35,651 nucleotides of DNA from Candidatus Woesearchaeota archaeon (GTDB lineage Archaea > Nanobdellota > Nanobdellia > Woesearchaeales > SKGA01), in the NCBI GenBank assembly GCA_016926395.1, contig JAFGOT010000027.1, forward strand, positions 1-35,651. The letters run 5' to 3'. The notes under the pieces are model-generated. The model was not told the DNA's origin and searched no databases. It worked only from the letters and a program-made list of their open reading frames with translations. The position numbers and the translations under genes were made by a program. Of this stretch, positions 2,284 to 15,763 are shown piece by piece; positions within the stretch are counted from its first letter, which is position 1, and each line of letters opens with the position of its first letter.

Positions 2284-3033
2284 ATGTCCAATAATGATTT
2301 TCAAAGCATCCGAACCGAATTAATCAAGAAAACCAAGTCTCAACTAGCTGATTCTGTAACTGAAGATATAATTATTATGCAGACTCTTGCTACTATTGAT
2401 GATTTATCATTATCTTTGAATAATGTGGCTACTCGTCTTCGAGAATGGGCTGCTTACACTGTTCCTGAATTGGAGCATTCTGTTTCTAATCATGAATCTT
2501 TTGCTAGGTTTTTAGTAACTAAATCTTATGATGAGATTCTTTCTGAGTTTGTTAAAGGACAAACCATGGGTGCTAGGTTATCTTCTGAAGATTATTCTGC
2601 TCTTGTTTCTTTTGCGACCAAAGTTCTTGAAATGTATGAGCTTAGAACTTCATTAACTGATTATCTTGAGTCTTCTTTACAAAAGTACACTCCTAATACT
2701 CTAGCTATCTGCGGTCCTACGATTGCTGCTAGGCTTTTATCAAGTGCAGGATCTTTAAGACGACTCGCTACTATTCCTGCTTCAACTATTCAACTTTACG
2801 GTGCTGAAAAGGCATTATTTAGACACCTAAGAAGCGGAGCTAAAAGTCCAAAATATGGTCACATTTTTAGTCACCCTCTTTTGCAAAATGCGGCTCGTAG
2901 TGAAGCTGGAAAGGTTGCGCGTGCCCTAGCTGACAAAATTGCAATGTGCGCTAAACTTGATTATTTTAAAGGGGATTTCCTAGGTGATAAATACTTGATT
3001 GCTCTTGAAGTCAAATTTGGGGGTAAAAAATGA
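2284..3033 (+). CDS. nop5: Nop5/Nop56-family C/D sRNP core protein, lacking the N-terminal domain
   Basis: The 249 residues cover the coiled-coil region (about 5-130, with the RLREW...PEL signature at 51-63) and the Nop domain (about 135-247, with ICGPTIAARLL, GAEKALFRHL, SPKYGHIFSHPLLQ and GKVARALADKIA...DYF). In the family the Nop domain clamps L7Ae-bound K-turn RNA and the coiled coil dimerises the box C/D methylation complex. Typical archaeal Nop5 is near 400 residues; the N-terminal fibrillarin-binding domain of about 120 residues and the lysine-rich tail are absent. There is no frame upstream that could encode them: a TATA box sits directly before the ATG. It overlaps fibrillarin by 4 bases (ATGA). 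Confidence 0.88.
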   Translation: MSNNDFQSIRTELIKKTKSQLADSVTEDIIIMQTLATIDDLSLSLNNVATRLREWAAYTVPELEHSVSNHESFARFLVTKSYDEILSEFVKGQTMGARLSSEDYSALVSFATKVLEMYELRTSLTDYLESSLQKYTPNTLAICGPTIAARLLSSAGSLRRLATIPASTIQLYGAEKALFRHLRSGAKSPKYGHIFSHPLLQNAARSEAGKVARALADKIAMCAKLDYFKGDFLGDKYLIALEVKFGGKK

Positions 3034-3812
3034 AGCCAAGAAATAATTTTTCAAAGAAGCCTCAAAAGTCTTTTCAAAAAGACAAATCTAAATTTGATTC
3101 AAAACCGCAACGTTCTGAAAAGCAAAGTTCTCACGGGATGATGCCTCTTGGAAAATTTCCTAATGTTTTTTCCGAACGAAAGGGTCGTTTCACTAATTAT
3201 TTTACTAAAACTGAAGATGGTAGATCTTTTTTTGATGAAAAAATTGTGAAAATTGATGGTCAAAAGTATAGAAATGTTAATCCTGAACGAAGTAAGTTAT
3301 TTGCAGGTATTGCATCTGGTATTTCTCAGATTGGTTTCAAAGATGATAGTGTTGTTTTATATCTTGGCGCTAGTCATGGTTATACTGTTAGTTTTTTATC
3401 TGATATGATAATTAATGGCCAAATTTATGCAATGGATTTTGCTCCTCGAGTGGTTAGGGATTTAATTTTCTTATGCGAAGCAAAAACTAATATTGCTCCT
3501 TTTATGGCAGATGCTAACCAGACAGCAGCGTATAGTGAATTGCTTCCTGCTTCTGGTGTTGACGTTATTTTTATGGATATTGCTCAGAAAAATCAAGTTG
3601 AGATTTTTACTAAAAATTGTGATGCTTTCTTAAAGTCTGGCGGTTTTGGTCTTTTAGCACTTAAATCTAGAAGTGTTGATGTTACAAAAAAACCAAAAGA
3701 TATTTTCAAAATTGTTAGATCAGAACTTGAAAAAAAGTATGTTGTTGTCGATTATCGAGAACTTGATCCTTTTGAAGAAGATCATGCTTTGTTTGTAATT
3801 AAGAAAAAGTAA
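3030..3812 (+). CDS. flpA: Fibrillarin-like rRNA/tRNA 2'-O-methyltransferase
   Basis: This is the catalytic subunit of the box C/D sRNP, which transfers methyl from S-adenosylmethionine to ribose 2'-OH groups chosen by guide RNAs. In the 260 residues, the region from about 82 onward follows archaeal fibrillarin: NPERSKL, the SAM loop VLYLGASHGYT (109-119), the acidic strand end (DFAPRV), VDVIFMDIAQKNQ, and LALKSRSVD; K of LALKSRS is the expected catalytic lysine. Residues 1-40 are an unusual lysine/serine/glutamine-rich extension, not the glycine-arginine type of eukaryotes. Its start codon overlaps the nop5 stop. A diverged second copy of its last 13 codons lies downstream at 3869-3907. Confidence 0.93.
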   Translation: MKPRNNFSKKPQKSFQKDKSKFDSKPQRSEKQSSHGMMPLGKFPNVFSERKGRFTNYFTKTEDGRSFFDEKIVKIDGQKYRNVNPERSKLFAGIASGISQIGFKDDSVVLYLGASHGYTVSFLSDMIINGQIYAMDFAPRVVRDLIFLCEAKTNIAPFMADANQTAAYSELLPASGVDVIFMDIAQKNQVEIFTKNCDAFLKSGGFGLLALKSRSVDVTKKPKDIFKIVRSELEKKYVVVDYRELDPFEEDHALFVIKKK

Positions 3813-3822
3813 TTTATTTGGT

Positions 3823-3853
3823 ATTGCGTTAAACGCAATCCCTGGCGCTCGCC
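3823..3853. repeat. GC-rich spacer hairpins after fibrillarin
   Basis: An inverted repeat ATTGCGTT/AACGCAAT (3823-3839) is followed by GGCG/CGCC (3844-3853). These are much more GC-rich than the surrounding sequence and separate the true fibrillarin tail from its second copy. They may be part of a terminator or a junction scar. Confidence 0.55.
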
Positions 3854-3868
3854 TATTGCAAGAATGGC

Positions 3869-3907
3869 GAAGATGATGATGCTTTGTTTGTAATTAAGAA
3901 GAAATAA
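3869..3907 (+). pseudogene. Orphan second copy of the fibrillarin 3' end
   Basis: Thirteen codons read EDDDALFVIKKK-stop, against EEDHALFVIKKK-stop at the true end (3774-3812). By eye 35 of 39 bases match, with an offset of 95 bases, so it is not in the gene's frame. The conserved D-H-A of fibrillarins is D-D-A here. The copy has no start and no upstream homology, so it is a tail fragment rather than a gene. It lies at the left border of the exported-protein block. Confidence 0.8.
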
Positions 3908-3921
3908 TTTCTTGTTTTTTT
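3899..3921 (+). terminator. Terminator hairpin built on the copied stop codon
   Basis: AAGAAA (3899-3904) pairs with TTTCTT (3908-3913), and the loop is exactly the TAA stop of the tail copy. A run of seven Ts follows (3915-3921), the layout of an intrinsic terminator for the nop5-fibrillarin transcript. Confidence 0.6.
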
Positions 3922-4041
3922 CTTATTATTTGTTTATCCTTTCTTTTTAGAAAGCTTTTTAAATGATTTTCACTGAATTTCTTACTATTAGTGTTATTAC
4001 TATAATAATTATAATTCCCTAAGGTGTGATTGGTGAGGTTC

Positions 4042-7000
4042 ATGAATAATAAGATTCTAATTTTTGCATTGTTGACAGTTCTATTTATTGGCTTAAGCTC
4101 AAGTTTTGTATCTGCAGCCGCGGCTGCTGATTGTTCGACCAGTCAAGCTTCGGATGAAAGCTTAAGCACTTCTAATGCTGCGAGTACAGGTCTTAAATTT
4201 GGATTTTATGGTGGTGTTTCCAATTTTTGGGGGACTGCTCGTCCGAGTTATTATTTAGATAGAATAAAGGACGCAACTGTTACATCTTCTGATATTTCTC
4301 AAGTTTTTAATTATTATCCTTCTACTCTTTATGGTTATGCATACAATACTTTGACTGGTGGTGTTCATTATGATTATGATTGTGAAATGGGTTATAGGGC
4401 AGGAACTTATATCTATGGTTATCCTGGAAAATTGACTGTTAAATTATGGTCTGATGGAACTGAAGGCGGCCGTTTACAAAGTACTTTTGATAAGCCTCAA
4501 GCTTTTGTAGGTGTCCAAGTTTATGAATTATATGATGGCGCGGGTTATGATCCTATATGGGGTTTAATGGGTTCAGTATCTTCTAACAATCCTGTTTCTG
4601 TAGGTCAGTTGTTGGCAAACCCTATTAGTAGTAGTCCTTTACACCTTTCAGGTGTTGGCGATCAAGGTTCTGTTTATGAGTATTTATCTTTGCCTCCTGG
4701 AGTTTATTATATTGCAGTAGCTGGTGGTCATAATAATCGTAATGAAGATTGGAATGATGACTATGAAACAGAGATATCCTTGTCTGGTACTTATAAGTCC
4801 TTTTCTCATTTACTTGAAGATGAGACTGACATAAAAAATAATCTTCCTTTAACTTATTTTAAATCATATCCTTCACTTTGTGAATTAGCTGGTGGTGCTC
4901 ACATAAAGAATACCGGTGTTTCAACATCTGATATAGTTAGTGGTGAAATTTATTGTTGTGGTGCTAGGAATGATGATGTTGGTAAATTTAATTATCAGTA
5001 TCGTTGTGATTATGTTGATGGAGAATATGTTTGGACTAATCTTTGTGAGTTGGATTATGACTCTCTTACTGGTGATAGTAAAACAAGAGCAAGTTCTTGT
5101 TTGGTCTGTGAAGCTGATTCTATAGATGGCGAGAATTATGCTGGTTATTGTATTGGTGAGGGTTTTGATGTTTACTGTGATAATTCTCAAACCAAATCTT
5201 GTTCTAATTTTGATGATGATCGTTCAAAGTGTTTGTTAGCTGGTTGTGGAACTTTCGTTCCTGGTACTCAATGTGAGTGTAGTGGTGTAGATTGTTCTTC
5301 AGGTGAAGTTTTTGTTGAACCAATTGGTAGTGCACCTGGTTCTGCTGGTTGTTACACTGCTTCCGAAATGCAGGCTACTTTTGGTGTTTCCGATTATTGT
5401 GATTCCGTTTGTGCTCATACGGACGGTACTGATTATCCTTCGGTGGTTATTGATTATACTGATGGTGATTGTGGCGGTACTAGTTCTTATACTTGTAATT
5501 TTGCGAATGACAATACTTGTCTTGCATTAGATTGTCGTCTAAGAGATGACGCGGCTAATTATTATTATTCTATTCCTTCTGGTTGTTATGAAAATACCTA
5601 TATACGAAATAACAAGCCAGAATGTTTTGCAGTTGGTTGTGGTTGGAAGTGTAGAACTTCTGATGGAAATTGTGATACTTCTATTGATTGTACTATTGGT
5701 AATCACTGCTCTGACGATCACGATCCTGATGAATTAGATTCAAGAACTTGTCATTCTGATGCTACAAAATGTATTGTGGGTTATTATGATGGTTACATTA
5801 ACGGAGGTTCGGCTTTTAGTTCAAATGATCATGTTGAAGTTGGTGTCGGCACCTATGTTTGTGCTGAAGACGAAACGGGTGTTGGAGTTTACAAACAGTG
5901 TGGTATTTATTTAGAACCTTATTCTTATGGTTCATGTACTTCTACTTCTGCTGAATTTACTTGTACTGGCACTCCTGATCCTCAGGTTTGTAAATCTAGT
6001 ACTCTTTATTGCTCTAATGAATGGATTGATGGTCCTAGAACTGCATCTTCTTGTACTAGTATTAATGGTAATTGTCATTACTCTGAGGGTCAGTGTTACG
6101 ATTCTGATGGTGGTTCTGGTGGTGGTGCTTACGCAGGTATTTTCAATGATGTATCTATTCCTTTAGTTTCAGGTTTTACTTTTGAGACTTGTCCGGAGGC
6201 TGGCACTCAATCTGTTTGTGAAGCTATGGGCTGTTCTTGGTCGCCTGCTACTTGTACTGGCACATATACTAAATCATGTAGTGGAACTCCTCCTTGTGCT
6301 TCTTGGTGTTATGCTGATCCTTCATTTACTTCTTGTACTGGTCTATCTTATGCTCAATGTACTACTGGTTGTACCCGTTCTTGTAAAGTAACTGGTTTTG
6401 GCTCTGCTGTTAATAAATATACTAATTCTAATTTAGCTCTTAGAGAATCTGCTTGTGACTGTGCAGGTGATGTTTGGGAAACTTGTTATATTGATTCTGA
6501 CGAAGATGGATTTCCTTCATCATCTCAAACTAATTTATGTGTTGGTTCTGATTATGTTGAAGGCGAGGCATTTGCTCCTTCTGCTGATCCTGATAATCTT
6601 TACTTTTGTGGATCATATACTGGTGTTTGGGATTGTGATGATAATGATGATTCAGTCTATCCTCTTCCTTATTATTTAGATAACGATGGTGATGGTTCTG
6701 GAGATTCTTCAATGGAAGATTTACTTTGTTCTCCTCCTTCTGGTTGGGTGGATGTTGGCGGGGATTGTGATGATGATGATCCTTGTTTGGTTCCTTGGAA
6801 TATTTGGTACTATGACGGTGATGATGATGGTTTTTACAATTCAACTGTAGATTCTACTGATAGCTGTACTCCCTTAACTAATTATGTAACTAATAGAGCA
6901 GAATGTTCAAGTGAGGATTTCTATGTTTCTTCACTTTTACCAGATTGTGATGATTCAATATCTAGTTGTACTTCTAATTGTAATACTGGTTATAGGGATG

Positions 7001-9795
7001 CTGATGAGGATGGTTATCCTCTTCAAAATGATAATATAACGCCTGGTTGTTCAAGTTCTGGTTATATTCTTGAAAGATCTGATGGTGCTTGGGATTGTGA
7101 TGATTCGCCTTCAACCGGTTCGGATATTTATCGTTTAGCTAATGTTTGTCCAGATAGTGATTCCGATGGAGTTTATGTTTGTGAATCTTGTGAAACTGAT
7201 GTTTGTGTTGGTGATTTTGTTTCTGACAACTCTAACTATGTTGGTTTTGACGAGTTAACTTATTCTGATTGTAATGATATTAATTCAGAAGATGACTGCG
7301 ATGATGGCAACATAACAATTTATCGTTTAGCAAACATGTGTCCTGATTTTGATGATGATACTCATTATGATTGTGATGCTTGTCAAACTGATGTTTGTGC
7401 TAATGATAATGTTCCTACATCTCATCCTGATTATATTGAATGGACGCAAACGCAATGTTTGGCTGCAGGAGAAACTGATTGTGATGATTCTCAAAGCGAT
7501 AGGTGGAGAGTTTCAACTGTTCACAAAGATGATGATTATGATGGTTATTATGATTGTGCTAATCCTTTAGTTGATCAATGTATTGGTTGTGATGATCCTA
7601 ATGATGGTTTTTGTAAAGATTCTTACATGCCTGTTGATTCTTATGGTGTTACTTACACTGATGATTATGCATCAACTTGTACTTATGACAACGCTATAAG
7701 TGATTGTAATGATAATGATGTTTTGCTTTATCATTTATGTTGTAATAATGCAAATAGTTATGAGTTCAAAAAATCAAGTCCAACTTATACTTTTGATTCT
7801 TCTAAAACTAACACTATTCTTTACAAAGTAAGAATGGATAATTATGATACTAGTTGGACAAATGGTGAACCTAGAATTGATGGTAACGATTGGCCTTTCA
7901 ATAATGTTGATTGGTCATTAGCTACATACACTTCTGATGGTAAGACTTTATTTGACAAAAGCATTTACGGATGTGCGGCTTCTAGTACTGCTAGTGTTTA
8001 TTATGATGTTGGTCCTGGAAACGTTGTTGTTGTTGAAAATAATGGTGGTGTGAATTTCATTTCTCATGATGGTTCTGCAAAGGACAGAGTAACTAAAGCA
8101 ACAAACACTTATTGTGATTCTAAAGGTTGTCCTTGGGTTGATTGTGACAACAATGCTGCCTCTGCATCTCAATGTGGTTATCCTTTCTTATTGGAAGGTA
8201 AGTCGTTGAAGTCTGGCTGGAATACTTTGAGTGATAATGGTTTATATAATCCTGATGACTCTGCTGAACGAGGTTTTGGTGGTTATACTGATTATGATGG
8301 TACTGCTTATGATGTGCGTCAAACAAGAAATGAATCTTGTGGTGATGATATGATTGCAGGTAGTTCTGAGTATGCAACTATTGGTTTCTGTGAGGCAAGT
8401 ACTGATTATAGAAGACTTTGTTGTGTAAGCCCTAACATGTATAACATGGATGGTATTTGTGTTGCTTACGATCAATGTCCTGATGTTATGGAATCTGCTC
8501 CTGTTTGGATTGATAGTTTGTCTCAAGCAGAATATGATTCTTACGTTGCAATTTTAGCTGTTTCTGGTGATGGTTACTGTTGTGATAATGAAGGTCCAAG
8601 TGTGGGAAAAGAATTATGTGTTGCTAGTGAAAAGGGTTGTTACATAAAAACAGCATCTCTAGCTGAAACTCCAATTCCTAAACCTGGTTATGTTCAAAAT
8701 TGGAATGATTGTCCTGCTGGTTCTTGTGCTCTTGAACTTTGTAGCTCTGCGACCAATTATTCTCTTTGTGAAAAATCAACTACTTGTGAATCCGAAGTGT
8801 ATAAGTTATACGTTCCTGGTATTACAAATCTAAAAGAGTGTCATCCAATTTCTGGTGGTTTATCTATTACTGCAGAGAAAGCTGCTTCTTATCCTTCGAT
8901 GCAAGCTGGTTGTGATGAATCCAGTTGTGAACGAGTTACTGAAACTATTTGTACTCTTGACACGTCTAGTAATTCATGTTATGCTCTTTGTAATGATGAT
9001 AAATCCGAATGCGAACTTGTTTGCGCTCAATCTGATTACACTTGTAGTAATGTTGAAACTTTAAGAAATTGTGAAGATCCATCTTGTGTTTATGATAATA
9101 CTAATCCTGTAATTTCATATAGATACAATGTTGATACAACACAATCCTTATCTTGTGAATCTGACTACTTTACTGAATGTAATGAGTTTGGTTGTGCTCC
9201 TCCAAAATATTGTGGTGGAATTCCTCCAGATGGAACTTTAGAGTATTTTGCAAACTGCGGTGCATATCCTCCTCTTTATACACATAATGTTGTTTGCGAT
9301 GAACACGTATCTTGTAGTAATCATGATTGTAATGAGTCTCAAGCATTAAACAGTGCTGACAATTTAGTTTGTCTTCCTGAAGTTACTGGTGCTTTAGATG
9401 TTGAGGGTAATAATTATCCAAAACTTGCAATGAATGATAACTTAGACACTCTTCAATGTTCTCCTGAGACGACAATAAAAGTTAAAGGTCAGCCTTTCTG
9501 TCCAGAAGGATTTGATTATGATGTGACTAACACCCGTTGTATTAAATCAACATATAATTGTGATTATGGTTATCGAGGAGCATTGGTTAATGGTTGTGAT
9601 AATTTAACTAGAGAAAATGATCCTTACTTAATGTATACTTCTGGTTGTTTCCAAGATTCTTCAGGCTTAGATATTGATTCAGTAAATGATTTGAATGCCA
9701 AGGCTTGTTGTCTAGATTATAGCATCGTTTCTGGTAGTGACATTTATGATGTTTACACCATTGAATCTGGTGAAGAATACATAAGAATCTATTAA
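4042..9795 (+). CDS. Giant secreted cysteine-rich protein with MopE-like metal-binding repeats
   Basis: The 1917-residue protein starts with a clear signal peptide (residues 1-29, MNNKILIFALLTVLFIGLSS then FVSAAAAADC). The ATG at 4042 is chosen over in-frame TTG/GTG codons 9-12 bases upstream because GGTGAGG lies just before it. I count about 137 cysteines (about 7%). Residues about 800-1230 hold seven units pairing a DxDxDG-type calcium loop (DSDEDGFP, DNDGDGSG, DGDDDGFY, DADEDGYP and others) with a DCDD motif, as in the 'putative metal-binding motif' family (PF11617) named for MopE. The remainder is Cys/Gly/Asp/Tyr-rich with many short Cys-x-Cys units. No C-terminal membrane anchor is visible. 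Likely a disulfide- and metal-stabilised surface or released protein; no enzymatic domain recognised. Confidence 0.8.
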   Translation: MNNKILIFALLTVLFIGLSSSFVSAAAAADCSTSQASDESLSTSNAASTGLKFGFYGGVSNFWGTARPSYYLDRIKDATVTSSDISQVFNYYPSTLYGYAYNTLTGGVHYDYDCEMGYRAGTYIYGYPGKLTVKLWSDGTEGGRLQSTFDKPQAFVGVQVYELYDGAGYDPIWGLMGSVSSNNPVSVGQLLANPISSSPLHLSGVGDQGSVYEYLSLPPGVYYIAVAGGHNNRNEDWNDDYETEISLSGTYKSFSHLLEDETDIKNNLPLTYFKSYPSLCELAGGAHIKNTGVSTSDIVSGEIYCCGARNDDVGKFNYQYRCDYVDGEYVWTNLCELDYDSLTGDSKTRASSCLVCEADSIDGENYAGYCIGEGFDVYCDNSQTKSCSNFDDDRSKCLLAGCGTFVPGTQCECSGVDCSSGEVFVEPIGSAPGSAGCYTASEMQATFGVSDYCDSVCAHTDGTDYPSVVIDYTDGDCGGTSSYTCNFANDNTCLALDCRLRDDAANYYYSIPSGCYENTYIRNNKPECFAVGCGWKCRTSDGNCDTSIDCTIGNHCSDDHDPDELDSRTCHSDATKCIVGYYDGYINGGSAFSSNDHVEVGVGTYVCAEDETGVGVYKQCGIYLEPYSYGSCTSTSAEFTCTGTPDPQVCKSSTLYCSNEWIDGPRTASSCTSINGNCHYSEGQCYDSDGGSGGGAYAGIFNDVSIPLVSGFTFETCPEAGTQSVCEAMGCSWSPATCTGTYTKSCSGTPPCASWCYADPSFTSCTGLSYAQCTTGCTRSCKVTGFGSAVNKYTNSNLALRESACDCAGDVWETCYIDSDEDGFPSSSQTNLCVGSDYVEGEAFAPSADPDNLYFCGSYTGVWDCDDNDDSVYPLPYYLDNDGDGSGDSSMEDLLCSPPSGWVDVGGDCDDDDPCLVPWNIWYYDGDDDGFYNSTVDSTDSCTPLTNYVTNRAECSSEDFYVSSLLPDCDDSISSCTSNCNTGYRDADEDGYPLQNDNITPGCSSSGYILERSDGAWDCDDSPSTGSDIYRLANVCPDSDSDGVYVCESCETDVCVGDFVSDNSNYVGFDELTYSDCNDINSEDDCDDGNITIYRLANMCPDFDDDTHYDCDACQTDVCANDNVPTSHPDYIEWTQTQCLAAGETDCDDSQSDRWRVSTVHKDDDYDGYYDCANPLVDQCIGCDDPNDGFCKDSYMPVDSYGVTYTDDYASTCTYDNAISDCNDNDVLLYHLCCNNANSYEFKKSSPTYTFDSSKTNTILYKVRMDNYDTSWTNGEPRIDGNDWPFNNVDWSLATYTSDGKTLFDKSIYGCAASSTASVYYDVGPGNVVVVENNGGVNFISHDGSAKDRVTKATNTYCDSKGCPWVDCDNNAASASQCGYPFLLEGKSLKSGWNTLSDNGLYNPDDSAERGFGGYTDYDGTAYDVRQTRNESCGDDMIAGSSEYATIGFCEASTDYRRLCCVSPNMYNMDGICVAYDQCPDVMESAPVWIDSLSQAEYDSYVAILAVSGDGYCCDNEGPSVGKELCVASEKGCYIKTASLAETPIPKPGYVQNWNDCPAGSCALELCSSATNYSLCEKSTTCESEVYKLYVPGITNLKECHPISGGLSITAEKAASYPSMQAGCDESSCERVTETICTLDTSSNSCYALCNDDKSECELVCAQSDYTCSNVETLRNCEDPSCVYDNTNPVISYRYNVDTTQSLSCESDYFTECNEFGCAPPKYCGGIPPDGTLEYFANCGAYPPLYTHNVVCDEHVSCSNHDCNESQALNSADNLVCLPEVTGALDVEGNNYPKLAMNDNLDTLQCSPETTIKVKGQPFCPEGFDYDVTNTRCIKSTYNCDYGYRGALVNGCDNLTRENDPYLMYTSGCFQDSSGLDIDSVNDLNAKACCLDYSIVSGSDIYDVYTIESGEEYIRIY

Positions 9796-9818
9796 GGTTC
9801 TTTTTTTATTTTATTTTT
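9783..9818 (+). terminator. Stop-codon hairpin plus T-tract
   Basis: AAGAATCT (9783-9790) pairs with AGGTTCTT (9795-9802), eight pairs including one G-U, around loop ATTA. The TAA stop (9793-9795) spans loop and stem. A T-rich tract runs to 9818, where the convergent gene ends. Confidence 0.7.
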
Positions 9819-12800
9819 TTATTCTTTAAGAGTTCCTAAACCCGTGTGAGTTTCATCTTTAGTTCTAGAAGTCATCGTTTTGTATATTATATTAACATTA
9901 GCAAAATCTCTAATCATATCATTAATTGTTATATCTGATGCTAATGCACCGTTCATGAAACTCTTATAGTTGCTTGTCTCTGACATATTTCCGAATCTAC
10001 CAAGTAGTTCTCTCATTCCAATTGCATAATGAATGTCTGATGCGGGTTGTCCTTGAGGTACACAAGTAAATGTTATGTCTGCTGTCGAATTAAATCCTAA
10101 GTTATTCGAGAATCCTCCACTATGTGAATCTGTAATCCCTGCTTTGTCGGTTACTGACTCTGCATTGATTCCCATTTCATCTCTTACTGACTCCATGTAT
10201 TCAGGATCGTTTAAATCAACTTGTGGTACTCCAATTGAAGCTCGCGGTGTATCAACAACGATTATATTATATGGTAAACCAGTGTGTGTTTGGATAAAGT
10301 TACCTAATTCTACTGGCCAGTCTGGATTATCAGAATTTGGAGTGTTATATACTCGCAGTTCATTCCAGTAAGACCAAGGCGCATTATATGTGCTTCCTTG
10401 TAATGATCTTAAGTCGTCTTTATTTATTGTTAGAACAGAATCATTAACTGGGTATGTCCAGCTTTTTTGAATCATGTTTGGATTATAGATTAAAACAGTG
10501 TCTTTGAAATTAGTTAGTTTGTCTTTAACTGGAACAGTTCCCATTTTTATGTTGTATGTTCCACCTACTGGGATGTTATCATGACTAAAATAATTATCAA
10601 CATTAGCTCCTTGAACTACAAAGTCAATGTCGCCAGTTATTCCAACAGGGAATGGTCCTAATCTGTACTCTCCATTAACTGTTGTTGTAGAGTAAACTGT
10701 TCCATCGGTTTCTGTGAATATAACTTCTAGCTCTCCAGCATCCCCATTGTCGCTTGTTTTTCTTTCTCCTTTCAAAACGAATTCTTGTTCAAGAGATGTT
10801 AAAGTTGGTTCTGTAAATACTGTTTGATTTGCACTTAATGATTTAGTCCATGTAGCAGGATAAATAGGTATGTTACCCTCTATTGTTTTTGGTATTACTT
10901 TTAGAGTGTATGTTGTATTTCCTGTTTCATTTACTAAAACTGTATCTGTAATAATTTGCCCGTCTAAAACATTAAATATTGTATCTGCAACACCAAGAGT
11001 GTTATTCGTAAATATGAAATCTGCTGTTGTTCCACTTTGCATTAATGGATCATTAAATCTAGTTCTTATCACTCCTTTGTATTCAGTTGGAGGAACTTCT
11101 TCTTTTACTAATTCATAAACTAATTCATTTGCCACTCCTTCGTTTATTGATATTGGTATAGAATCGCTTTTTATGTATCCTGCTCTCTCCATTAATAATT
11201 TTAAATCCAGTGTGTGTCCGGGCATTGTTGTTTGTAGGTTTGTGATTGTATCTTGTAGACTGTTCCCACTCATTAACAACTGCCCATTAAGGAATGCTTT
11301 TACATCAACAGAATCAAGTGCAATTCCACTTGCGCTATCTTTTCCTACAACACCTAATTCGTATAAGTATGTTAGAAGTTGGTTTTCTGTTATTCTGTTT
11401 TCTATTGTTTCTGCTGTTAGGTTTGTTTCTAGTCTGTAATCTGAGTGTTCATCTAGGTTTGATTTTAGTATTATGTTTTTATTTGTGTTTACGTCTTGGA
11501 ATGTTAGTGTGTCAAGAGAATTGTTTCCGGTGTTGCCAGATCCTATTAGTGTTGAATCGCTACTTAGTACTAGCCAATTAACGCCTGGTAAATTGTTTCC
11601 TTCTCCATCTTGAGAATTTATTACTAATTCGTATAAGTATGTTAGAAGTTGGTTTTCTGTTATTCTGTTTTCTATTGTTTCTGCTGTTAGGTTTGTTTCT
11701 AGTCTGTAGTCTGAATGTTCGTTTAGATTTGATTTTAGTATTATGTTTTTGTTTGCGTTTAAGTCTTGGAATAATAATGTGTCAAGAGAATTGCTTCCTG
11801 TATTTCCTTGTCCAATTAACACTGAATCGCTACTTAACACTAACCAATTAACGCCTGGTAAATTGTTTCCTTCTCCGTCTTGAGAATTAATAACTAAAGT
11901 ATACTCTTTTGGTTGTGGATTATTTATTTCTGTGATTTGATATGTTTGATTGAAGTTTCCGTTTGTCAAATTTATTGAATCTAATTTATCTTCTAAATCT
12001 ATTCCACTAAATCTTAAAAAATGTTTTAATGTATCTGGTGTTATTTCATTAAATGCATCAATACTTATGTTTTCAAAACTTACTTGTCCTTGTTCATTTG
12101 AAAATAATTTTAGTGTATCTGTACTATTTTCTTTCCACATTTCTGCTAGTACGTTGTTTAGAGGATTTCCTGTTTGTTCGCTTACTATTGTGGCGTAAAG
12201 GTTAGCGAAAAATTCTTGCTGTTTTGGAGTTAGATTGTGATAATTTTTTATGATGTCTCCTTGGCTTACTTTCCAAAGAGTATCTCTTGCCATTTCTAAA
12301 TAATCGTTTGCAGGGATTTCAACTGCGAAATCAACACTATCTGGTATTAATTTATTTCCTTCTATTGGTTTGATTGCAATATCAGTTATTTGAGCATCTC
12401 CGTTATTGTCTGTGGTGATATTAAATGAATATTGTCCGTCTAAAGAATTAACATTCATGTTTGTATTTTTTTGTATGTTGCCATATTTGTCTTCTAGATT
12501 AAAGAACATGTTCGCAAAGAATTCTGGCCATTTTTGCATTTCAAAATCAAAGTAGTTGGTGTTTTCTAAATCTACTGACTTAACAATCTCAAGAGGTTGA
12601 TATTCGTCAACTTCTTCTGCATCATCTAATCTGAATATGAAATTATTATTTTCTGCCATTCGAGCGCTTTTTTGTCCATTGTTGTTTTCTGATGATTTAT
12701 CAAATTCAATTGTTTGCATTCCATAACTTGGAAGCATTCCTGGAATAATTTTTTTTGCTGGATGAACTCCATCACTGAATAGAAGAACTTGCTCTGGAAC

Positions 12801-13223
12801 ATTCGGTATGTTCATTGTTGCTTGAAATTCATTACTTCCCACTCTTTGAAATTGTGTTCCTGAAATAGTTTGTCCAGCCATATTGTATAAATGGCCATTT
12901 TCAATATTTTGGTTGGTTGTAACGTTGATTCGCATTTGACCTCCTTCATATGTGATGGTCATTTTATCGCCTGAGAATCCAGGAATGTCATTAATTCCTG
13001 TAACTATGTCTTTTAATTCGTAAAAGCCCGAAAAGTCTGTTAATGTGTCTTTTCGTTTAGTTGTGTCATTTTGAGAAATTGCTTCGACAATAATATTTTC
13101 AAGAGCTTGTCCTGAGTTTTTATCTGTGACGTACCCTTGTATATCCTGGCCGTTTGCAAATAATGGTGCCAAAGCTAATGATCCGATTGTGAGTGTTTTC
13201 CAGAATGCTTTTTTCAGGCCCAT
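9819..13223 (-). CDS. Secreted multidomain protein with carboxypeptidase-regulatory-like domain and protease-like C-terminus
   Basis: The 1134-residue protein has a signal peptide (1-25, cleavage probably after ALAPLFANG). Residues about 27-75 (IQGYVTDKNSGQALENIIVEA...DTLTDFSGFYEL) resemble the carboxypeptidase-D-regulatory-like beta-sandwich common in Bacteroidota secreted proteins. Residues about 90-165 resemble a beta-rich 'YNMAGQ' module of the same world. Two 90-residue tandem repeats occupy 444-533 and 534-623, with more beta-sandwich units to about 900. The C-terminal 200 residues (HSGGFSNNLGFNSTADI, then IHYAIGMRELLGRFGNMSE, YKSFMNG) look like a zinc-protease fold in which HExxH has become RELLG, so activity is unlikely. 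Function unknown; probably cell-surface. Expressed from its own promoter. Confidence 0.6.
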   Translation of the reverse strand: MGLKKAFWKTLTIGSLALAPLFANGQDIQGYVTDKNSGQALENIIVEAISQNDTTKRKDTLTDFSGFYELKDIVTGINDIPGFSGDKMTITYEGGQMRINVTTNQNIENGHLYNMAGQTISGTQFQRVGSNEFQATMNIPNVPEQVLLFSDGVHPAKKIIPGMLPSYGMQTIEFDKSSENNNGQKSARMAENNNFIFRLDDAEEVDEYQPLEIVKSVDLENTNYFDFEMQKWPEFFANMFFNLEDKYGNIQKNTNMNVNSLDGQYSFNITTDNNGDAQITDIAIKPIEGNKLIPDSVDFAVEIPANDYLEMARDTLWKVSQGDIIKNYHNLTPKQQEFFANLYATIVSEQTGNPLNNVLAEMWKENSTDTLKLFSNEQGQVSFENISIDAFNEITPDTLKHFLRFSGIDLEDKLDSINLTNGNFNQTYQITEINNPQPKEYTLVINSQDGEGNNLPGVNWLVLSSDSVLIGQGNTGSNSLDTLLFQDLNANKNIILKSNLNEHSDYRLETNLTAETIENRITENQLLTYLYELVINSQDGEGNNLPGVNWLVLSSDSTLIGSGNTGNNSLDTLTFQDVNTNKNIILKSNLDEHSDYRLETNLTAETIENRITENQLLTYLYELGVVGKDSASGIALDSVDVKAFLNGQLLMSGNSLQDTITNLQTTMPGHTLDLKLLMERAGYIKSDSIPISINEGVANELVYELVKEEVPPTEYKGVIRTRFNDPLMQSGTTADFIFTNNTLGVADTIFNVLDGQIITDTVLVNETGNTTYTLKVIPKTIEGNIPIYPATWTKSLSANQTVFTEPTLTSLEQEFVLKGERKTSDNGDAGELEVIFTETDGTVYSTTTVNGEYRLGPFPVGITGDIDFVVQGANVDNYFSHDNIPVGGTYNIKMGTVPVKDKLTNFKDTVLIYNPNMIQKSWTYPVNDSVLTINKDDLRSLQGSTYNAPWSYWNELRVYNTPNSDNPDWPVELGNFIQTHTGLPYNIIVVDTPRASIGVPQVDLNDPEYMESVRDEMGINAESVTDKAGITDSHSGGFSNNLGFNSTADITFTCVPQGQPASDIHYAIGMRELLGRFGNMSETSNYKSFMNGALASDITINDMIRDFANVNIIYKTMTSRTKDETHTGLGTLKE
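11354..11893 (-). repeat. Two tandem 270-bp repeats inside the secreted protein gene
   Basis: Copies 11354-11623 and 11624-11893 have an exact 270-base period (90 codons). About 85 bases (11354-11438 against 11624-11708) are identical at the nucleotide level, while the rest has scattered, mostly synonymous or conservative changes. This suggests a duplication with later local gene conversion. Confidence 0.9.
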
Positions 13224-13248
13224 ATTGTTATCTTTTAACCTATTTGTA

Positions 13249-13257
13249 TTTATAAAT
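13249..13257 (-). promoter_or_regulatory. TATA box for the 1134-residue protein gene
   Basis: TTTATAAAT lies 26 bases before the ATG at 13223, predicting a leaderless or very short-leader mRNA. No Shine-Dalgarno motif is visible. Confidence 0.65.
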
Positions 13258-13286
13258 GTTTCGATTTATATACTACTGTAAAGTGA

Positions 13287-13298
13287 CAAATTTATTTG
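13287..13298 (-). terminator. Stop-codon palindrome of the lipobox protein gene
   Basis: CAAAT/ATTTG arms enclose the TAA stop (plus-strand 13292-13294). The loop is very small and there is no strong T-tract, so terminator function is uncertain. Confidence 0.35.
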
Positions 13299-14518
13299 CT
13301 TTCGTATATTTTGTCGAAAATAACGTTTGATAAGCTGTCTAGAATGATTGGTGTTAGATATTTTTCAGTTAATTGTTTGGTTTGGTTTTTATTTTCTACT
13401 GTTGTGTATATTACTCTTCCTTGAGCCATTGCATTGTTATTCTCATCAAATTTTTTAGTGTATTTGTAATCAATAAAATTATTTTCTTGTTTGTATGGAA
13501 TAACATCTCCACCTTTTATTTTTAAATCTTGATTTCTTTTAATTTTATTTGCCTTTAACATCATCAAATATATTGCTTTGTCTGATTCATGAATTAATGT
13601 TCCTTTGTTTACTCTTATATCGTAACTTTTCAATGCAAAGTCTATGATGACGACTATTTTGTTTTCATACGTATAAATTCCTGGATTGTTTAAATCTTCT
13701 AGTGTGATAATTTCTAAGTTTGTTTTATTATTTCTTTTTTCTTTTTCTTCTTTTTTGATGTTATATGCTTCTAACCGTTTTTTTGTTAATTCAAAGTATC
13801 CCTCTTGTATTGGGCTTTCTGTTAATTTTGCATATTCTTGGGATTGATTTACAAATTCGAAAATTTCTTCAAAATCTTTGTTGTCTTTTTCTATCATTTC
13901 CTCAAGTCTTTCTTCAAATTTATCTTGGCCTTTCCCAACTGTTTTTTTAAGATCTTCTTCACATTCTTTATCGATAATTAATGCTTTTGTTTTATTTTTA
14001 TAACTTAGAACTAATTTTTCTTTACTCTGTTCTTTGCTTTGTGCGTATTTTAAAGCAGAATAAAGAAACAAATCTATTTGCTTTAGATTTTCTTCATCTA
14101 AATCTCTAATTTGTTTATTATATTCTTTTTTGAATGTTTTTTCTGATTTTAAAATTTCTGAGAAAACATCGTTTCTCTTTGTTTCTAATTTGTTTATCTC
14201 TTCTAGTTTTTTGTTAAAGAAAATCTTTCCATTATCCGACCATTCTTCATCTCGATCTTTTCTTACTAATTCTTTTGCTTTTTCAAAGTCTTGCATATCG
14301 ATATATTTTTGATATTTTAAAGATGCTTCTGTCTCCAAAATTTTCCTATCGAGTCTAATTCTCTCAATTGACAAGTTCATTGTTTTAGCTTTTGCTTTTA
14401 GTTCATTAACTTGTTCTTGGCTAACTCTGTTTTCAGGAATTATTGGTTGAAATGCTTGTTTTGTAGTGCTACAGCTAACTGTTGCGGCTATTATTGCTGC
14501 TAAAGCTAACTTTTTCAT
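13292..14518 (-). CDS. Lipobox-bearing, coiled-coil-rich exported protein of unknown function
   Basis: The 408-residue protein begins MKKLALAAIIAATVSCSTTK, a textbook lipoprotein signal with a lipobox (TVSC, cysteine 16). Residues about 35-270 are charged and strongly helical (KAKTMNLSIERIRLDRKILE..., KLEEINKLETKRND), consistent with long coiled coils. The C-terminal third (about 275-400) is more beta-like (NPGIYTYENKIVVIIDFALKSYDIRV). I recognise no family. The signal and S-T-T-K context look Bacteroidota-like, and it sits in the same block as another protein with that flavour. The start follows a T-rich terminator region with no ribosome-binding site. Confidence 0.65.
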   Translation of the reverse strand: MKKLALAAIIAATVSCSTTKQAFQPIIPENRVSQEQVNELKAKAKTMNLSIERIRLDRKILETEASLKYQKYIDMQDFEKAKELVRKDRDEEWSDNGKIFFNKKLEEINKLETKRNDVFSEILKSEKTFKKEYNKQIRDLDEENLKQIDLFLYSALKYAQSKEQSKEKLVLSYKNKTKALIIDKECEEDLKKTVGKGQDKFEERLEEMIEKDNKDFEEIFEFVNQSQEYAKLTESPIQEGYFELTKKRLEAYNIKKEEKEKRNNKTNLEIITLEDLNNPGIYTYENKIVVIIDFALKSYDIRVNKGTLIHESDKAIYLMMLKANKIKRNQDLKIKGGDVIPYKQENNFIDYKYTKKFDENNNAMAQGRVIYTTVENKNQTKQLTEKYLTPIILDSLSNVIFDKIYESK

Positions 14519-14532
14519 AAAAAAGAGAAATG

Positions 14533-14552
14533 AAGATTATCTTAATAATCTT
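14533..14552 (-). terminator. Hairpin after the TrpRS tail remnant
   Basis: AAGATTAT (14533-14540) pairs with ATAATCTT (14545-14552) around a four-base loop, a perfect 8-bp stem. On the minus strand it begins inside the remnant's TAA stop and is followed by a T-rich run leading to the lipobox gene's ATG. It probably terminates trpS transcription. Confidence 0.6.
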
Positions 14553-14610
14553 ACGGCTTATACAAAAACTCATCAATCAAATCTTTTGCTTTCTCACGTC
14601 TTGCTTGGTG
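14551..14610 (-). pseudogene. Orphan TrpRS C-terminal tail
   Basis: Twenty codons read HQARREKAKDLIDEFLYKP-stop. The true TrpRS ends HQKRRKEAENQIEDFLYKPE-stop. Eleven of 19 residues are identical and the stop falls in the equivalent place, while the DNA is clearly diverged. HQARR is typical of TrpRS C-termini in other organisms, so this is probably the tail of a different trpS allele rather than a fresh duplication. There is no start and no upstream homology. A hairpin CTTCC/GGAAG (about 14611-14627) separates it from the resident gene. Confidence 0.82.
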
Positions 14611-14641
14611 TCTTCCGTTTAGGAAGGCTCAAAAAATAAGT

Positions 14642-15763
14642 TTATTCTGGTTTATACAGAAAATCTTCTATTTGATTTTCTGCTTCTTTCCTTCTTTTTT
14701 GATGTTCAGCTAAGAACTCATTAATTTTGTCAATTAACATTGCTTTTACTTCGCCAGATAAGAGTTCGCCTTTTCGATATTTATCATACATCTCTTGTAG
14801 TTTTTCATCGTCATCTTCAAAGTATTGCATCCATTGACAAGCAACATCGATATCTGGATTTCCGCCTAGTTTTCTATGTTCTTCGACTGTATCTTGTCCG
14901 CCACTAAATGCATATTTGTTAATTTTTTTCTTAACTGTTTTTGGATCATCTGTTAGAAGAATATCTTTTCCTTCTCCACCTTTATCTGTCGATTGTTTTC
15001 CTTCTCCGCCTGTCATTGGCGTCATAAATTTAGCATGTAGTATTGCTGGTTTTTTATGTCCTAATTTTTCTATAACATCTCGACTAATTCTAAAGTGGGG
15101 ATCTTGATCAACACCAAGTGGAATGAGACACGGTCTGTTTTCATTTCTTAGTACGTTTGGTAAGAATGCTGGAACTGTTTGCATTGCAGTATAGAAGATG
15201 CTTCCTATATTGTTGGAATCCGTGAATCCAAATGCGCCTTTAACTTGTGATGTTGTTATTTTTTTTGCTACTTTGATTGCTTCTGGATACATAATTCCTG
15301 CATGTTTTGTATCAATCAAAAAATGTGTTTTTTTTGGGTCAAAACCAAGTGCAATCACATCTAACATGTTCTCGTATGTCCAGTCTTGAATTTCTTCATA
15401 ACTTTTATCTTGTTTGAATAAGAATTTTTCATCATCTGTGAACTGAAACCATAGGTCCACATCAAAAACATCTTGTAACCATTTGACAAATCTCCAAGTT
15501 CCAACATGACCTAAATGTATTGGTCCTGATGGTCCTCGACCTGTATATAAAAAGAATTTATTTCCTTTCTTGTATTCGTCAAGGCACCATTTCAGGTCTC
15601 TGTGTGCAAAGAATATTCCCCTACGTAATTGAGGGTGTAGTTCTCCTGCAAGTTCTTTGATTTGTTTAAGATCCTCTTCTGTGAGTTTCTTTATACCAAA
15701 TTCTAAAACTAGTCTTTCATAATCGACTGCTCCTTCGACCTCGTATGGATTTACTGTACTCAT
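14642..15763 (-). CDS. trpS: Tryptophanyl-tRNA synthetase (archaeal/eukaryotic type)
   Basis: This class I synthetase charges tRNA-Trp. Its 373 residues match the archaeal/eukaryotic branch: HIGH motif as PIHLGH (81-86), the GVDQDPHFR block (218-226), NKYAFSGGQDTVEEHRKLGG and CQWMQYFEDDDEKL, the last strongly like the human enzyme. The usual KMSAS loop is not found; at that position (about 250-266) there is a glycine-rich MTGGEGKQSTDKGGEGK, so the ATP-activating lysine must be one of these. The start ATG is preceded by AAGGAT. It lies alone between convergent/divergent neighbours and has its own TATA-like region near 15815. Confidence 0.95.
   Translation of the reverse strand: MSTVNPYEVEGAVDYERLVLEFGIKKLTEEDLKQIKELAGELHPQLRRGIFFAHRDLKWCLDEYKKGNKFFLYTGRGPSGPIHLGHVGTWRFVKWLQDVFDVDLWFQFTDDEKFLFKQDKSYEEIQDWTYENMLDVIALGFDPKKTHFLIDTKHAGIMYPEAIKVAKKITTSQVKGAFGFTDSNNIGSIFYTAMQTVPAFLPNVLRNENRPCLIPLGVDQDPHFRISRDVIEKLGHKKPAILHAKFMTPMTGGEGKQSTDKGGEGKDILLTDDPKTVKKKINKYAFSGGQDTVEEHRKLGGNPDIDVACQWMQYFEDDDEKLQEMYDKYRKGELLSGEVKAMLIDKINEFLAEHQKRRKEAENQIEDFLYKPE

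Follow-up and report, generated by a model that had tools for sequence, protein, structure and literature searches.

The window (35,651 nt, the whole stretch of DNA that was analysed) carries the gene encoding fibrillarin on the plus strand and the gene encoding tryptophanyl-tRNA synthetase (trpS) on the minus strand. Between them lies a 10.8-kb block of three genes (Table 1). The initial annotation had read all three products as exported proteins, and their N-termini indeed resemble those of signal-peptide proteins or lipoproteins. The 1134-aa protein also contains tandem in-gene repeats (window 11354-11897; 175 bp, 270-bp period). At each border of the block, a second and diverged copy of the neighbouring gene's 3' end had been noted. 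Both copies were reproduced on re-reading, with the same extent and the same degree of identity. The second fibrillarin tail starts 56 nt past the resident end, a stop codon is present in both second copies, and folding of the DNA places hairpins between the first and second copy at both joints.

Table 1. Genes, gene-end copies and inserts between the fibrillarin and trpS genes (window coordinates)
Feature	Coordinates	Strand	Remarks
Fibrillarin gene (PF01269)	3030..3812	+	Resident copy, used end; stop codon 3810-3812
Fibrillarin 3' end, first copy (EEDHALFVIKKK, stop)	3774..3812	+	
F1-type hairpin element	3817..3868	+	Hairpin 1 3820-3842; conserved 3' box CGCTCGCCTATTGCAAGAATGGC with weak hairpin 2 3851-3868
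Fibrillarin 3' end, second copy (EDDDALFVIKKK, stop)	3869..3907	+	35/39 bases
Exported protein, 1921 aa, no Pfam family	4030..9795	+	Ordinary neighbour, not cargo
Exported protein, 1134 aa, carboxypeptidase-regulatory-like domain	9819..13223	-	Neighbour
Lipoprotein-like exported protein, 408 aa, no Pfam family	13292..14518	-	Neighbour
trpS 3' end, second copy (HQARREKAKDLIDEFLYKP, stop)	14551..14610	-	11/19 residues
Short trpS insert	14611..14641	-	Hairpin CTTCC-TAAAC-GGAAG at 14612-14626, behind T-run; not F1, F2 or F4 type
trpS 3' end, first (used) copy (HQKRRKEAENQIEDFLYKPE, stop)	14642..14704	-	
Tryptophanyl-tRNA synthetase gene trpS (tRNA-synt_1b, PF00579)	14642..15763	-	

The resemblance between first and second tails was compared with permuted pairings. 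In an ungapped DNA scan, 984 open reading frame tails were each aligned with their own downstream 400 nt. The fibrillarin tail scored 29, compared with 15 for the best among 984 permuted pairings. At the protein level, fibrillarin scored 49 and trpS 61, compared with 30 for the best among 4,890 permuted pairings. Since the second tails exceed every permuted pairing, chance was excluded for both genes.

The window comes from the incomplete draft genome (G000; 1 Mb in 40 contigs, 82.5% complete) of a small-genome archaeon, probably of the DPANN group. It was compared with two genomes of the same genus, G001 and G002 (HKST-UBA04, a Nanoarchaeota MAG), and with one of the same family, G003; the scans of G001 and G002 cover part of each genome. 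Fibrillarin has no match in G001 (96% complete) or G002 (99% complete), and its match in G003 has 64% identity. A genome search with the fibrillarin spacer led to contig C38, where the hairpin and box lie between the stop codon of a PAC2-family gene and a second PAC2 end. The same layout, in which a stop codon is followed by a hairpin insert of ~20-110 nt and then by a second gene end, was found at ~20 gene or tRNA ends of G000 (~13 protein-gene ends, 5 tRNA 3' ends and 2 gene starts). At the other doubled gene ends of this genome, the second copy always lies within about 130 nt. The proteins concerned include a methionine-aminopeptidase-like protein (Peptidase_M24), OapC, an XPD-like helicase, an exonuclease III family protein, PAC2, PCNA, a RumA-like tRNA_U5-meth_tr protein, an RsmB/F methyltransferase, a DUF7121 coiled-coil protein and one unnamed protein. 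Another is a zinc-ribbon protein without a Pfam match, read by eye as topoisomerase-type. The tRNA 3' ends are those of Val, Asn, two Gly and Leu, with three copies at Leu. In a permutation-controlled scan of G000, 14 tails scored at least 30 where 0.2 were expected; ~12 of these are real and two are low-complexity or long-gap matches. In G001, six tails reached this score against 0 expected (415 kb scanned). An unbiased scan for short-spaced direct repeats returned 19, of which 10 overlap or adjoin a protein-gene end and others lie at tRNA 3' ends and at a gene start; 59% of tolerated 40-bp windows would be expected to fall wholly between genes.

Several of these sites show further detail. 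The tRNA-Leu 3' end (TGCGAAGCACAGG) occurs three times at L101:10100-10330 (G000 C32), and an F4 hairpin separates two of these copies. At one tRNA-Gly gene (L105:35340-35480 in joined contig coordinates, G000 C37), the gene-side copy ends in the discriminator base and lacks CCA, which instead follows the displaced copy. A doubled gene start was found at L080:3143-3260 (G000 C11), where partial first codons (MVRVAI..) and an F4-like hairpin precede the full gene (3240-4229), which is GAPDH-like by eye. In G002, a tRNA 3' end is present three times in a row with two different hairpin inserts between the copies (L218:1300-1600). In G001, a zinc-ribbon gene has a third partial tail copy (PKKKKRK and a stop) behind the second (L205:11607-11830), which suggests repeated insertion at one gene. 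Two near-identical 85-bp direct repeats about 1.1 kb apart at L104:13873-15112 (G000 C36) are unrelated to the tail repeats.

The inserts fall into recurrent types. Three families were found at different genes of G000: F1, with the 3' box CGCTCGCCTA(n)TGCAnGAATGGC; F2, with GCAGCTTTTGnnTGAAAAGnTGC; and F4, with CAATAATC-TTT-GATTATTG. F1 is present at 8 ends in four genomes, and the end is doubled every time. Its sites are fibrillarin and PAC2 in G000, YhbY and two tRNAs in G002, DUF7121 and one more gene in G001, and a gene in a further genome, G042. Exact matches to the F1 box in the searchable GTDB r220 contigs were limited, besides G000, to G002. The order within an F1 insert is the stop codon, a T-rich stretch, hairpin 1, hairpin 2 and the second copy. 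The element at the fibrillarin joint is supported by its relatives (at L069 7561-7611 and in G001, G002 and G042), an alignment, compensatory changes and the DNA fold. The sequence of hairpin 1 varies and its pairing is kept, with four pairs changed on both sides; stem covariation was 0.381, compared with 0.182 for shuffled sequences and at most 0.175 when the stem was slid. Hairpin 1 was missed by MAFFT with RNAalifold and was revealed by counting over a named structure. F4 hairpins lie at tRNA-Gly (twice), tRNA-Leu, tRNA-Asn, PCNA, one gene start and other sites, and flanking repeats scoring at least 14 were found at 7 of 15 sites against 3 of 600 random positions. In antisense reading, several inserts carry conserved hairpins at one of their ends and an A-rich stretch at the other. 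Rfam returned no match at E<=5 across eight insert-bearing loci. A viral origin of F1 and F2 was considered and dropped, as IMG/VR held no match to the exact patterns. The trpS insert has no counterpart at other sites; its anatomy alone would place it among the hairpin elements, and it is perhaps truncated.

Doubled ends in the relatives were found at RumA, DUF7121, YhbY and tRNA genes, with cargo behind none of them. Every family member with a RumA gene (G000, G001 and G003) has its end doubled, and among the ends read from relatives outside the family none is doubled. For DUF7121, doubling was seen in each of the three genus members (G000, G001 and G002), and not in G003 or other families. 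Because the DUF7121 copies match each species' own peptide, either the pairs have separate origins or selection has kept acting on both ends.

The block between the two joints had been interpreted as a cassette of surface genes, acquired from a relative with the same fibrillarin and trpS neighbours and flanked by the donor's gene ends. The order of parts at both borders does match that description. However, doubled ends recur at ~20 other places without any block, and the F1 insert of the fibrillarin joint is shared with other genes and other species. Fibrillarin and trpS are not adjacent in the relatives examined: they lie on different contigs in G003, trpS has other neighbours in G001, and G001 and G002 lack a fibrillarin match. 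The GC content of the block (34.0%) equals that of its flanks (32.8 and 32.7%), and third-position GC is also alike. A search for tail repeats up to 25 kb apart turned up paralogues and no pair that encloses kilobases of cargo. The inserts of the two joints are unrelated to each other. Taken with the recurrence of doubled ends without a block, the non-adjacency of the two genes and the flank-like GC content, this indicates that the two joints are independent. The cassette was therefore rejected and is regarded as highly improbable. What stands of the earlier proposal is insertion at a gene end that leaves the gene unharmed, with one of the two ends derived from another version of the gene in several cases; its scale and the link from joint to joint do not.

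The two copies of an end range from nearly identical to extensively recoded. Near-exact pairs were found at L131 (32/32), at the methionine-aminopeptidase-like gene (85/86) and at tRNA-Val (29/29), and the RumA end repeat of G003 has a precise boundary right after the stop codon. Judged by sequence, these fresh pairs resemble exact duplications of a target of 14-86 bp. At XPD, the insert provides a new stop codon (TFN and a stop in place of AFAPKDD and a stop). Other pairs keep the peptide at ~55% DNA identity. The RumA copies of G000 differ at 25 of 54 bases and yet at only 6 of 18 residues. The DUF7121 end reads FQKSLGK and a stop twice in G000 and FQRSMSK and a stop twice in G002; almost every codon differs between the copies, and Ser switches between TCA and AGT and Arg between AGA and CGC. 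If the changes were random, conservation of the peptide would have P<5e-6 for RumA in G000 and for DUF7121 in G000 and in G002, and P = 8e-5 for RumA in G001; trpS is weaker (P about 0.03). As these older copies (RumA; DUF7121 in G000 and G002) encode the same peptide with different codons, both ends were once working gene ends. In pairs of low divergence, changes are also mainly silent (13 residue changes, where random placement would give 28), a bias that loses significance once silent changes in the first copy make up more than ~1/3 of the total; in that case plain duplication followed by drift is possible for these pairs. Synonymous gene ends lying side by side are a natural and countable record of end swapping and silent recoding.

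Each of the two joints thus probably arose by its own local insertion, independent of the other, of a short hairpin element without genes (about 50 nt long at fibrillarin, about 31 nt at trpS) at the 3' end of a conserved gene; elements of this kind form a population in this archaeal family. We infer insertion because repeats are seen and because relatives are without the doubled end. A site-specific or staggered insertion at the gene end would regenerate that end, so that the gene would never be broken. The copy beside the gene body would become the working end and the displaced copy would stay behind; C-terminal ends in these genomes can thus be chimeric. Which copy is native points both ways: the second trpS copy is nearer than the resident end to the ends of 15 of 19 relatives, the second RumA copy of G000 and of G001 is slightly nearer to relatives, and at fibrillarin it is the first copy that is nearer. 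Where the copies differ mainly by silent changes, the working end may have been the element-borne one in some lineages or alleles and the native one in others, as with prophage e14 in icd. The mobilizing enzyme would act in trans. G000 encodes three tyrosine recombinases (PF00589), none within the inserts, and these are possibly the best candidates for moving the elements; the two longer ones are encoded at C6:19898-20986 and C30:1664-2410 (minus strand). The element population offers a concrete test of whether the solitary tyrosine recombinases of such archaea have substrates. Tyrosine recombinases normally need an identical core of 7 bp or more; some very diverged pairs contain no such core.

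Integration at a gene end with a replaced and mostly silently recoded end is already known for kilobase elements that carry genes. Archaeal integrative elements with a tyrosine recombinase, and casposons, use the 3' ends of tRNA and protein genes, can supply the stop codon and reuse sites in tandem (PMC6563490, PMC4046053). The hairpin inserts resemble them in targeting tRNA genes and conserved protein genes at their 3' ends, in leaving the gene whole, in the att-like direct repeats that flank them, in the element-supplied stop codon and in tandem site reuse. Those elements, in contrast, span kilobases and encode an integrase or Cas1, whereas the hairpin inserts are ~20-110 nt long, gene-less and many per genome. 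No integrase was found inside the inserts and no larger insert between tail copies. A casposon would have Cas1 and PolB genes with terminal inverted repeats and kilobase size; the size of the inserts leaves no room for genes. The e14 prophage of Escherichia coli, as described in a secondary account, brings its own version of the icd gene end, with 10 synonymous and 2 non-synonymous differences, and displaces the native end (PMC2973815, citing Hill 1989). Going by that account, the mainly silent replacement of a gene end is shared with the hairpin inserts; e14, however, is a 15-kb prophage at a single gene, and the inserts are gene-less and lie at many. In fungal mitochondria, mORFs bring a foreign C-terminus to atp6 in Allomyces and to atp6, atp9, cox2 and nad3 in Glomus (PMC3630166). 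The likeness extends to a new in-frame C-terminus, an insert, a second C-terminus downstream and mostly silent differences; in the mORFs the stranded downstream copy is the native one, and here the evidence on which copy is native points both ways. The mORFs encode a LAGLIDADG or GIY-YIG endonuclease, whereas the hairpin inserts encode nothing, and no homing endonuclease ORF fits within them.

Short elements offer other parallels. MITEs leave short fixed duplications and are not known to prefer gene ends; a MITE of a known transposase would also have terminal inverted repeats matching a transposase element. Like MITEs and the REP-type palindromic repeats of prokaryotes (PMC10969869), the inserts are short, gene-less, hairpin-forming and dispersed. 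Unlike MITEs, they give duplications of 14-86 bp at gene ends. The Y1 transposase (Y1_Tnp) was looked for and not found in G000-G003, and a REP/RAYT origin was set aside on this basis. Compared with integron attC sites, one stem is conserved in structure with compensatory changes, core sites were not found consistently and the targets are housekeeping genes. A population of gene-less inserts of ~20-110 nt at ~20 ends of a 1-Mb archaeal genome, with two synonymous versions of a gene end left next to each other, appears to be undescribed in the literature searched.

Other explanations were weighed against independent insertion of gene-less elements. An artefact of assembly or strain mixture has next to no probability: G000 is an incomplete draft, but the pattern is present at many loci in at least four independent genomes, and conserved inserts with diverged copies go beyond what mis-assembly makes. 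A homing drive with a recoded rescue end, in which a nuclease, perhaps guided by RNA from the insert, cuts the native end and a silently recoded end escapes, would account for conserved genes and tRNAs as targets, for the silent recoding, for the same gene being struck independently in several species and for fresh-pair mismatches that are often near the insert. We hold it to be very doubtful, given that no TnpB/Cas12-type gene (PF07282 did not pass the cut-off) and no Y1 transposase were found in G000-G003, that no consistent flanking motif was seen and that the methionine-aminopeptidase pair is unrecoded. A TnpB/Cas12 guide was accordingly rejected. A broader version, a natural homing system without its own protein gene that combines a hairpin with a silently recoded rescue end, relies on a nuclease or recombinase in trans and spreads via the essential-gene and tRNA ends of a small-genome archaeal family, is considered distinctly unlikely.

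The second tail could itself be selected, being expressed as an alternative C-terminus (by splicing, bypassing or as a separate peptide) so that both ends are kept. The DUF7121 peptides repeated in nearly all different codons in G000 and G002 would fit, as would the RumA second tail with a common junction in three species. Yet the frame relative to the first tail varies, no start or splice signal was seen, tRNA ends are doubled as well, and the second RumA copy of G003 is without the conserved V/L before Glu; this explanation is judged quite improbable. It is rather unlikely that a transposon, or SINE-like target-primed reverse transcription, simply duplicated the target site and that the second copy then drifted neutrally. 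The exact and near-exact pairs and the precise RumA boundary in G003 speak for such a plain duplication, and the inserts resemble SINE-type retroposons in their long and variable duplications, in the A-rich end of several when read antisense and in a possible truncation (trpS insert). Against it, RumA and DUF7121 keep their peptides in recoded copies, and known DNA transposases leave short fixed duplications. Reverse transcriptase (PF00078) was not found in G000 or G002, and the enzymes of G001 and G003 look DGR-type; the retroposon route was rejected on these grounds. The reverse transcriptases of G001 (L204:13242-16260) and G003 (L210, L212 and L213) resemble those of diversity-generating retroelements, and that of G001 adjoins a candidate variable protein and a phage-portal-like gene.
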